Below, in pieces: positions 2,887 through 28,811 of a stretch of 64,000 nucleotides of DNA (the stretch's first letter is position 1; each line of letters opens with the position of its first letter). Below the pieces are notes generated by a model. That model was not told where the DNA came from and did not search any database. It was given only the letters and a program-made list of their open reading frames with translations. The DNA lies in NCBI GenBank assembly GCA_025677835.1, contig JAIXMR010000052.1, positions 98,501 through 162,500 of the forward strand. Direction: 5' to 3'. The position numbers and the translations under genes were made by a program. The stretch comes from Sporodiniella umbellata (taxonomy: Eukaryota > Mucoromycota > Mucoromycetes > Mucorales > Rhizopodaceae).

Positions 2887-2940
2887 GAAAGCGAAAAGAA
2901 AACAAGCTAATATTAAAAAACACAAGTTTTTCTTTTGAAA

Positions 2941-4218
2941 ATGGACCGCTACGAATCTAACACTACTACTACCACTTATACCTCCACTTACTCTTCTGAC
3001 GGTCAATCGTACACTAACGTGTCCTCTGAGTCCACCCATAGCTCTACTACTCTCTACATCAACGTTGTCTCTGCTAGCAACTTGATCGCCTCTCAACGTT
3101 TTGGAAAGCAAGACCCTTACCTCCAATTTACTTTGGACGTTAACAAGAAGGACTCTTTCACCCGTACCTTCACCCACAAGGATGGCGGTGACAAGGCCTC
3201 ATGGAACCAGAGCTTTACCATCAACTTGAACGGTGAATCCGATCTGTTCATAGAAGTTTTGAACGAAGAAACCACAACAGATGAAGCCATCGGTTTTGCT
3301 GCTATTCCCATTAACCAGGTCGTTCACTCTCACGGTGCTTTTATGAACGGTCTTTTTGACGTCTACGATATCAAGGGCCAACGTGCCGGTGTTTTGAACT
3401 TGCAGTTGGCTGCCCAAGGTTTCCCCAACTCTCAAAAGCCTGACTTTACCAGTGAACCCGTCCGTGGTCAATCCTATGTAAACGAAACACACAAGGAACG
3501 TATGAATGCTTCTAAGACAAAGAAGACAGGTATTGCTGTGGGCTCTGCTATTTTGGGTGGTGCTTTAGCTGTCGGTGCCGGTTTCCTTGGAAAGAAGGTA
3601 TACGATGACCATAAGGAAAAGGAAGAGGAAGAACACAGACAAGAAGAGGAGAAAGCTCGTCTTCAAAAGGAGTCTGAAGAGAAGCAAAGCGCTTTCGACT
3701 CTGAACGCCAACGTTTCGAAGCTGAAAAGGCTGAATTTGAAAACCAAAGAAGAACTGAGCAAGAAAACCAGAAACACGCTGAAGAAGAAAGACAAAAGCG
3801 CTCTGAGGAAGAAAGCCACAAGCGCGCTGAAGAAGAAAGCCACAAGGCCAAGAAGGAATGTGAGCCCAAGAAGAAGGAGTGCGAACCCAAGAAGAAGGAC
3901 TGCAAGCCCAAGAAGAAAAACTGTGACGATAGCGGTTCCGATAGCGATTCATCCGATTCTGGATCTGACTCTGACGATGACAAGAAGAAGAAGAAGAAGG
4001 ATTGCAAGCCCAAGAAGAAGAGCTGTGATTCTGATGACGAAAAGAAGAAGAAAAAGAAGGATTGTCACTCTGACGGTAAGAACTGGGACCCCGTCGGTAC
4101 CTATTCTGCTGGCGACCGTGTAAAGTATCATGGTAAAACCTATGTCTGCCTCCAAGGCCACACCTCCAACCCCACCTGGACTCCTGATGCTGCTCATTCC
4201 CTCTGGCAAACCGCCTAA
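2941..4218 (+). CDS. C2 domain, Gly-rich hydrophobic segment and chitin-binding (CBM5/12-like) protein
   Basis: Single exon, 425 residues. Residues about 1-36 are a Ser/Thr-rich leader. Residues about 37-160 form a C2 domain, normally a calcium/phospholipid-binding module, with the FGKQDPYLQF and WNQSF hallmarks. Near residue 200 a Gly/Ala-rich stretch (GSAILGGALAVGAGFLG) could insert in a membrane. A Glu/Lys-rich coiled-coil-like region and Lys/Cys/Asp/Ser repeats (KKKECEP, KKKDCKP, SDSDD) follow. The last 45 residues are a CBM5/12-type chitin-binding module (NWDPVGTYSAGDRVKYHG, then a Trp-rich end). There is no N-terminal signal peptide. An AATAAA lies at 4255-4260, 37 nt past the stop. Inference: it may link membrane or vesicle surfaces to chitin; with no secretion signal, its location is unclear. 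The domains are secure, the role is not. Confidence 0.85.
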   Translation: MDRYESNTTTTTYTSTYSSDGQSYTNVSSESTHSSTTLYINVVSASNLIASQRFGKQDPYLQFTLDVNKKDSFTRTFTHKDGGDKASWNQSFTINLNGESDLFIEVLNEETTTDEAIGFAAIPINQVVHSHGAFMNGLFDVYDIKGQRAGVLNLQLAAQGFPNSQKPDFTSEPVRGQSYVNETHKERMNASKTKKTGIAVGSAILGGALAVGAGFLGKKVYDDHKEKEEEEHRQEEEKARLQKESEEKQSAFDSERQRFEAEKAEFENQRRTEQENQKHAEEERQKRSEEESHKRAEEESHKAKKECEPKKKECEPKKKDCKPKKKNCDDSGSDSDSSDSGSDSDDDKKKKKKDCKPKKKSCDSDDEKKKKKKDCHSDGKNWDPVGTYSAGDRVKYHGKTYVCLQGHTSNPTWTPDAAHSLWQTA

Positions 4219-26350: not shown

Positions 26351-28811
26351 CTACTTTATACCTTCGTCTATTCCTGCCTGAATGTCCAGTAGGTTTTTCA
26401 GTCGAACACTATAGCGCTGTTCATAGCTGAACCAAACCACAAGATTGATGTATTGAATCACTCCTGGTTTGAAAGGCTGATCGGATACTGGATTTGTCTC
26501 ATCTTCTACGTAACTGAGAACACCTTTCAGAGGACCATTTTTACAGGCTTCGTGAATCGTCATTTCCACTTCTTTAAAGGAAACAGACTATAGAAAAAAT
26601 GTTATGTTAGCACTTGAAAGATATTAATGAGCGTCTTTCTGTGTTACCTTTTCAACCCGTATTGTTAGATCTACGGTAGATACATCCTCTTCTGATATGT
26701 CAATATCAATTCCTTTTATCTTTCCATCAAGCTCAGGTATAAATGGAGTCATTTCTGATGCAAGTTGATCAAAAAACGAAGCCGTAGATGGGTTGCTACT
26801 GTCAGCGAGTTTTTTTTCCTGGATAGAATTGATTTCGAGTCCTTTGGTAGAGACATCTGTTGACAATAATTGGTTAGCAATGGCTTGGGCCCATGCTAAG
26901 GTTGGATCGATAGGCTCTTCAGCCGTTGAAGCTGTTGACGTCTTTTCTTTTGCCCCTATCTTTTTAATAGCCCCTGAAGGAGATATGTTGATATCTGGCT
27001 GAAGAGTAGTACTGGTATCTATAGTAGAGGATTGACATGTTGTTCCGCTTGCTGTACTTTCAGAGTCTGATAGTCCCTTAGTGGATTCCTTTGAAGATTC
27101 GTGATCCACAGAACGGTTCTGTAATTCTCTCTCAAAAGAAGATGATGCGGCTTTATCAATAGGGCTATTATGAACATTCTTGGATGTAAAGTTGGTACAT
27201 TTGTTGTCTCCAATAGGAGGGGTAGGGACATGACCAGCCGAAGGGCTGTATTCAGGCCATAACATCCTTTCGGAGTCTTGAATTGGGCCAACAAGCTCGT
27301 CCAAAGCTAACTCAATCACCACAGGTTCATTTTGACTACCTTCATGACCGTCGATCGCAGCGTGGGCTTTGTTGTCAGGAGTATCTTTCTCGTCTACTCC
27401 AAACTCTTTGGAAACTAGGTCCATAAGGTCTTCACTAATGGGTACATTTTTGAACCATATGGCCTCGTCTGAAGTATTAAAATAGTCGACATCCTCAGAG
27501 GCAAGATCGCTAGCTTTGCCTTCCGAGGGTTTGGTAGGCGACTGAATAGGGCTCTCTGAAGTCGGCGTGGCTTTTTTCTCCAAAAGGTTGTTACGAACGC
27601 TTGGCAATTGCGAATCTGATTCAACTGGCTTCTCCTGAACCTGTCGAGACTTACTATTGGCTGTGGGCGTATCCGTACCTAAAAGGGGGTCTTTTCTGTC
27701 TATAGCCAATGAAGGGAGTACAAAGTCAGGCAAGTCCAAGTCTATGCTCTGTTCTAAGATTTCTTGAGTAGGCTTGGCTTGAGTACTAGGACTTTTTGAC
27801 TGCAAACGAGGGTGAATCTCCGGACTTGATACAGCAGACAAGCTTGAAGAGTCTGAATGTATACTATGGGAATGAACAGGTGTTGAGATCAAGACAAGTT
27901 TGGCCATCAGCAGGGTATCAATACATTTGATAAGAGGCACCAGTAGTAGGCCATTGTTAAAGGGTTTGGTGCGACTCTCTGGCTGGTCCTTAGTAGGCTT
28001 AGTAGATACACGGGCAGTCTTCTTTTTGGCAGGCTCAGATTTGGCTACTGCTTTTTTCTTGGTAGAGGTAGTGGATGTACGGAGGGTATTCTTATTGACA
28101 TCCGCGGTTTTGGTCGAAGCCTTTCTTTTATTTTTGGCAGGTGCAGTGGATACGCTGGGTGTATCCTTATCGTTAGATACTAACTTGACTTTACTCTTTT
28201 TCTCGGCGGGTACAGTGGATACACAAGGCGCATCCTTTTCACTAGGTTCCGGCTTGGTTGGACTTTTACTTTCAGAAGTGGCGGGACGGTTAGTTAGCGA
28301 CTCCATTAACTCAACTCTGGTGGCTCCAGCATGGATATGGCCTTCGATCGTTTTTTGACTGGCATTTTTGCCGGACGCCTCCATGACATATTCAACAGCA
28401 CATTGATCCCAAGGGATACTAGATGTTGATTTTTCGTGGTAAACTTCTATGCGCTGTCTGTCGATATATAGCTCACTTATGCCTTTTCCTACTGAAATAC
28501 CAGAGTTGCGTAAAATTTTATTTCGGCAGAGAGCATCAAACTTGAAGACGAAAAAAAAAAGTAAGTGAACATGATTAAACATAACAAGAAAGGAATTAAT
28601 TCAATTCACTCACAATTTTTTCGAGGCTTCTTGAGTGATCATTGATAGCTACTACATTTATTTCTGGATTCACCAATGATTCTATTAAAACTCTAACACC
28701 TATAAGGCCAAGGCTATTGATACCAGCCCTTGTAGCGTATCTGACATCTTTGTTTCTCATGTCTTCAAGACTGATGGTGGTAAGTGGAGAGTTCTTTGTG
28801 TTGGATGACAT
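26351..28811 (-). CDS. GAPDH-like protein with catalytic-domain insertions, probably not a dehydrogenase
   Basis: Exons (minus strand) 28811-28614, 28540-26648, 26587-26351; 775 residues, both introns phase 0. The N-terminal part (to about 148) follows the GAPDH Rossmann fold: AGINSLGLIGVRVLIES, VVAIND, IEVYHEK, IPWDQCAVEYVMEASGK, HIHAGATRVEL. A Lys/Thr/Ser-rich repeat block of about 110 residues follows. Then FNNGLLLVPLIKCIDTLLM aligns with the helix after the GAPDH active site, and at the position of the catalytic Cys it has Asn. A second acidic/Ser/Pro-rich block of about 360 residues follows. From 655 GAPDH resumes: FIPELDGKIKGIDI, DVSTVDLTIRVEK, CKNGPLKGVLSYVEDE, VVWFSYEQRYSV. Normal GAPDH has about 335 residues. 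Homology is clear by eye; loss of catalysis and any new role (possibly nuclear, given the H1-like block) are inferred. Confidence 0.88.

Follow-up and report, generated by a model that had tools for sequence, protein, structure and literature searches.

The window analyzed here, 64,000 nucleotides of a contig (C147) in the 26 Mb, 198-contig genome assembly of Sporodiniella umbellata, contains on its minus strand a three-exon gene (window 28811-26351) encoding a protein of 775 residues that begins and ends as a glyceraldehyde 3-phosphate dehydrogenase (GAPDH). Sequence comparison gives good support to the view that this protein is a GAPDH-derived pseudoenzyme, and we moderately favor the interpretation that a GAPDH was duplicated and its catalytic middle replaced by about 515 residues, most of them predicted to be disordered, yielding a scaffold of the GAPDH fold that lacks catalysis and carries a long charged arm. 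The product of the splice model matches the NCBI entry "glyceraldehyde 3-phosphate dehydrogenase [Sporodiniella umbellata]" from end to end with 100% identity; the name of the entry is likely to be misleading for this gene. The fungus belongs to Mucorales, family Rhizopodaceae, and is an insect parasite that groups among Rhizopus species according to a partial text of PMC6958464.

The two ends and the middle block

Both ends of the protein are homologs of GAPDH by sequence comparison. The Pfam domain Gp_dh_N (PF00044) covers residues 28-126 (E 2.6e-12, 47.3 bits against a curated cut-off of 31.7), and Gp_dh_C (PF02800) covers residues 660-727 (E 1.8e-10, 41.1 bits against 24.4), the latter match spanning just profile positions 58-124 of 158. 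Scored against a model derived from 82 normal GAPDHs, the protein reaches 100.6 bits over the stretches 27-143 and 664-728, with nothing between them, and GAPDH chains from the PDB match down to E 2.4e-25; in the two PDB-chain alignments shown, the upstream match ends at residue 145 or 152 and the downstream match at residues 766-768. The same genome yielded two normal GAPDH genes, on contigs C101 and C191, with products of 338 residues; the window protein is 37% identical to the C191 GAPDH over 218 aligned columns and 34% identical to the C101 GAPDH over 217. The original prediction, made from the letters alone, had read the two ends as GAPDH and had named the lack of a GAPDH profile score at either end as evidence against this; both Pfam domains exceed their curated cut-offs.

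Exon 1 (window 28614-28811, the same as in the deposited protein) encodes residues 1-66, that is, a 26-residue N-terminal tail and the strands with which the GAPDH Rossmann half opens. This half as a whole (residues 27-142, window 28313-28733 including intron 1) has a profile score of 52.2 bits. The C-terminal homologous region starts at the end of exon 2 (residues 660-697, window 26648-26761) and continues in exon 3 (window 26351-26587), where residues 698-775 and the stop codon account for the remainder of the region, including the C-terminal helix, as judged from PDB-chain alignment and the AlphaFold2 (AF2) model built with a bacterial GAPDH alignment.

Residues 119-212 of the C191 GAPDH, a segment of 94 residues that we take to hold the catalytic Cys151, His178 and the S-loop, have no recognizable counterpart in the window protein, where about 515 residues stand instead (residues 143-659, window 26762-28312, the upstream edge being uncertain by about 10 residues). 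Scored with a profile of this GAPDH segment, the middle of the window protein obtains -0.8 bits, a value equaled or beaten by 208 of 2000 shuffles, with 657 of the 2000 unreported. The best local pairwise score of the middle against the C191 GAPDH, 28, lies below the shuffle mean of 31.3 and is reached by 2430 of 3000 shuffles. MAFFT aligned parts of the GAPDH middle with scattered residues of the block; because neither the profile nor the pairwise shuffle tests show a GAPDH signal there, these placements are taken as chance.

In the original prediction, an active-site helix survived in the middle as LLLVPLIKC, with the catalytic Cys changed to Asn, and this change served as a ground for inactivity. 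We rejected this assignment: the stretch LVPLIKCI scores 22, a value matched in 1657 of 5000 cases when residues 258-302 are shuffled, and sliding windows at other places in the middle score 23. Neither the helix nor the Cys-to-Asn change draws support from the profile and pairwise tests, and a remnant of the helix that has diverged past recognition is conceivable, given that the order along the chain is right and a low-confidence helix is drawn there in the models. The proposed layout of two low-complexity inserts flanking the helix gives way to a single replaced block; the long open middle itself holds, and the description as low complexity fits residues 151-262 best, entropy being higher in most windows of residues 291-655.

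The block is heterogeneous in composition. Its lysine-rich tract (residues 151-262, window 27953-28288) contains 23 Lys among 112 residues, has a net charge of +17 and shows a degenerate 23-residue period, the best period score of which is reached by none of 1000 shuffles. A short hydrophobic, helix-like segment follows (residues 264-284, window 27887-27949; no significant GAPDH similarity), and then a long acidic tract rich in Ser, Thr and Pro (residues 291-655, window 26774-27868), with a net charge of -26 and interspersed hydrophobic islands; taken whole, this tract is classed as disordered by its charge and hydropathy. An open frame of 152 codons on the plus strand (window 27900-28358) runs antisense to the lysine-rich tract, over which its codon score is positive (0.14 vs 0.27 for the gene's frame), a score that probably mirrors the repeat composition.

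The middle belongs entirely to exon 2 (residues 67-697, window 28540-26648), which was correctly described in the original prediction as a single open exon of 631 codons (1893 nt without a stop). For six segments of the gene, we compared all six frames by a codon score for which nine further reading frames of the window had served as training set. The gene's frame has no stops throughout and the best score in five of the six segments; the exception is the segment 263-290, 28 codons long, where a different frame is ahead (0.13 vs 0.05). The 511 codons of the middle lack stops altogether, compared with an average of 27.0 (minimum 14) in 500 base shuffles, and the long middle looks coding. A wrong gene model or a faulty assembly join, such that the middle would be absent from the mature protein, could be suspected from the segment 263-290; we nevertheless regard this as highly improbable, given that the frame passes both junctions of the middle inside one 631-codon exon, codon use favors the frame in the other five segments, and the middle was found nowhere else in the genome among the candidates scored. 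The search behind the last statement, at E 1 and with scores computed just for the best candidates, yielded 7 matches: the gene itself accounts for 2, and fragments of the normal C101 and C191 GAPDHs for the remaining 5, with no second copy of the middle; an origin of this sequence elsewhere in the genome, whether in a gene or in a repeat, was accordingly rejected for the candidates scored. No tandem repeat was found at the DNA level, where direct repeats are confined to three two-copy families of 14-19 bases.

Catalytic capacity and descent

GAPDH catalysis by the window protein appears very unlikely because the block with the catalytic Cys, His and S-loop is gone. The GAPDH-I equivalog model TIGR01534 assigns the protein 71.4 bits, far short of the cut-off of 367.2 that the normal C191 (440) and C101 (443.5) GAPDHs pass. 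Within the two ends, there are 67 positions conserved in at least 95% of the 82 normal GAPDHs, and 35 of these are changed, with 32 kept; among the strongly conserved C-terminal columns, the changed ones number 21 of 38. The changes include R233 of the C191 GAPDH, presumably the phosphate-site Arg, which is D680 in the window protein, and N316, presumably the nicotinamide-site Asn, which is Y752. The view of the protein as non-catalytic, already put forward in the original prediction, is borne out by the unrecognizable Cys/His/S-loop segment, these two substitutions and the equivalog score. The fingerprint for nicotinamide adenine dinucleotide (NAD) is mixed: G11, G14, N33, D34 and G99 are retained, D34 being the residue that we take to touch the adenosine ribose of NAD, whereas R12 is changed to L, F101 to N and G9, the first Gly of the dinucleotide loop, to S (S33), the last change having been read correctly from the start. 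The protein may bind NAD in part.

The argument on descent rests on the introns. Intron 1 (window 28541-28613, GT-AG, 73 bases, phase 0) follows residue 66, and intron 2 (window 26588-26647, GT-AG, 60 bases, phase 0) follows residue 697; they correspond in site and phase to the introns 1 and 2 of the C191 GAPDH gene, after its residues 42 and 250, respectively. The third intron of the C191 gene is missing from the window gene, and the two introns of the C101 gene lie at other positions. Because both introns occupy the C191 sites in the same phase, the gene is read as a diverged duplicate rather than a retrocopy: the likely origin, inferred from sequence and gene structure, is duplication of a C191-like gene at the DNA level, followed by very fast change. 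A retrocopy or broken pseudogene was rejected on the strength of the intron sites and the 775 open codons. In a tree of 23 sequences, the window gene falls on the C191 side (support 74) with a branch of 2.42 substitutions per site, compared with 0.17 for C101, and this long branch makes the tree by itself weak. The C101 and C191 GAPDHs are 80% alike over the 217 compared columns of both ends and have no intron position in common. Among the 80 matches listed, the top one is a GAPDH 76% identical to that of C191, at positions 601-1602 of a contig (L011) from a bin labeled "uncultured Clostridia bacterium"; a transfer or a mis-binned contig is possible.

The long branch, together with the loss of about half of the strongly conserved residues and the failure to find a relative of the same build among the candidates scored, would also fit a relic, that is, a duplicated GAPDH drifting without function whose frame is open by chance. 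We consider this improbable. All 775 codons and the splice signals of both introns are intact, and codon use speaks for this frame in all but one of the six segments. Moreover, in a neutral simulation of 118 codons starting from the C191 GAPDH and run to 37% identity, with indels and frameshifts uncounted, stops numbered 3.4 on average and 9 of 300 runs were stop-free; compared with this simulation, the 775 open codons speak for selection on the frame.

Possible functions of the protein

Under the interpretation that we moderately favor, the GAPDH gene would have been duplicated and its catalytic middle swapped for a long, mostly predicted-disordered charged arm. The folded part may bind a partner or the adenosine half of NAD; the lysine-rich repeats and the ensuing acidic Ser/Thr/Pro-rich stretch could tether it to nucleic acid or chromatin; and the arm would recruit partners, so that the protein might act as a nuclear regulator. 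Among the possible roles, that of a nuclear scaffold or regulator ranks first because the lysine-rich repeats are reminiscent of histone H1 tails; a scaffold or nuclear protein had also been suggested tentatively in the original prediction. A more specific version, which we entertain tentatively and deem rather unlikely, is a regulatory hub made from within: the active-site block would have been dropped in favor of a half-thousand-residue disordered arm, basic and then acidic, the GAPDH ends would close as one domain, and the metabolite-binding fold would bear a chromatin-binding arm in the nucleus.

Structure prediction is compatible with a folded part and a flexible arm. When AF2 is supplied with a bacterial GAPDH alignment, the predicted local distance difference test score (pLDDT) is at least 90 in each ten-residue block of 31-140, and in both models, with the alignment and from the single sequence, it is mostly below 50 in the middle. 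The Rossmann half is predicted to fold, with the C-terminal helix packing back on it and most of the middle flexible. A search of a viral structure library returned 76 matches at E 10 and none at E 0.001.

Several observations weigh against the scaffold interpretation. The single-sequence AF2 model has no confident fold (mean pLDDT 37.6), and the folded model was built on an alignment of normal bacterial GAPDHs, part of whose catalytic block MAFFT put on residues of the middle. Low-confidence helices are drawn by AF2 at 614-625, 629-643 and 650-666, and charge and hydropathy place windows centered on 576-651, along with a few near 321-351, on the folded side. The basic tract is no proof of a nuclear location. 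Activation-domain-like windows in the acidic tract do not go beyond composition, 434 of 1000 shuffles having one, and an activation domain identified by such windows was rejected on this count; the hydrophobic acidic islands of the tract likewise stay within what chance gives for its composition. Finally, no relative of the same build, by which conservation of the arm could be shown, was found among the candidates scored.

The segment 264-284 raises the possibility of a membrane-tethered GAPDH relative, in which this segment, lying between the basic and the acidic tract, would form a membrane helix. Its best 19-residue Kyte-Doolittle mean, 1.96, is above the customary membrane-helix threshold of 1.6 and compares with at most 1.36 in both normal GAPDHs, and both AF2 models draw a helix there. 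The segment, however, contains two Lys, one Asp and one Pro, and the pLDDT of the helix is below 50; a membrane anchor seems very improbable.

A further alternative, which we judge unlikely, is a regulatory subunit that joins normal GAPDH: through its C-terminal strands the protein would associate with normal subunits, and its disordered arm would act as a tether or restraint on the resulting mixed oligomer, comparable to plant GapB and sperm GAPDS. The C-terminal strands and helix are retained in the sequence and the model, normal GAPDHs exist in the same genome, and the title of PDB entry 2vyn names a mixed GAPDH tetramer of Escherichia coli and rat sperm GAPDH. Against this stand the 21 changed columns among the 38 strongly conserved C-terminal ones and the loss of the S-loop, which takes part in the subunit contacts of normal GAPDH. 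Added segments with tethering or regulatory roles are known, namely, the C-terminal extension of GapB (partial text of PMC3838966) and the N-terminal domain of GAPDS (partial text of PMC10499166).

Known GAPDH variants and other observations

No second protein of the same build was found in a full-length search that scored a capped set of 7988 candidates or in further searches with 167 and 63 candidates, the last at E 10. The first of these searches produced 2 matches, the protein itself and a GAPDH-TPI fusion, the second produced the protein itself only, and the third none. These protein searches need exact 5-residue words and are blind to moderately diverged orthologs, for example, in Rhizopus; the searches with 167 and 63 candidates returned no normal GAPDH either, so that a moderately diverged Rhizopus ortholog could be missed. 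A GAPDH with such an internal replacement was not found in a literature search by titles and abstract openings, which covered part of larger result sets.

The nearest known system is GAPDH-I, represented by the C191 enzyme, to which the window protein is homologous at both ends and with which the gene shares two introns in site and phase, but it differs in the replacement of residues 119-212 by about 515 unrelated ones, the changes of R233 and N316 and the failed equivalog cut-off. The GAPDH-TPI fusion P0002 (606 aa), the sole other match in the full-length search, resembles it as a long GAPDH-containing protein but retains the active-site motif SNASCTTNC and carries a fused second enzyme domain (PF00121, presumably triosephosphate isomerase, TPI), with no internal replacement. 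Mammalian sperm GAPDS is likewise a GAPDH paralog with a long non-enzymatic segment, in that case a tether; it is enzymatically active, and its addition of 72-105 residues is at the N terminus (partial text of PMC10499166), whereas the window protein has only a 26-residue N-terminal tail, its long addition being internal, in place of the active site. Plant GapB also combines GAPDH with a grafted segment, a regulatory, CP12-like C-terminal extension of the enzyme subunit, about 30 residues long (partial text of PMC3838966); the window protein, in contrast, ends at the GAPDH C-terminal helix, without such an extension.

Few proteins are as conserved as GAPDH or moonlight as often, and its side roles are normally studied in the active enzyme. 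If the favored interpretation is true, a GAPDH relative without an active site would separate a side role of the GAPDH fold from glycolysis, and an enzyme would have become a regulator by internal replacement rather than by terminal fusion; as it stands, this is an unusual anatomy in one species. Gal80 and NmrA, fungal dehydrogenase-fold regulators, are NAD(P)-fold proteins without catalysis; likened by description, they share just the proposed working mode with the window protein and belong to other families.

Elsewhere in the window, on the plus strand (2935-4218), a 427 aa frame shows an odd domain pairing, with a C2 domain, a stretch rich in lysine, serine and aspartate, and a C-terminal carbohydrate-binding module, CBM_5_12.
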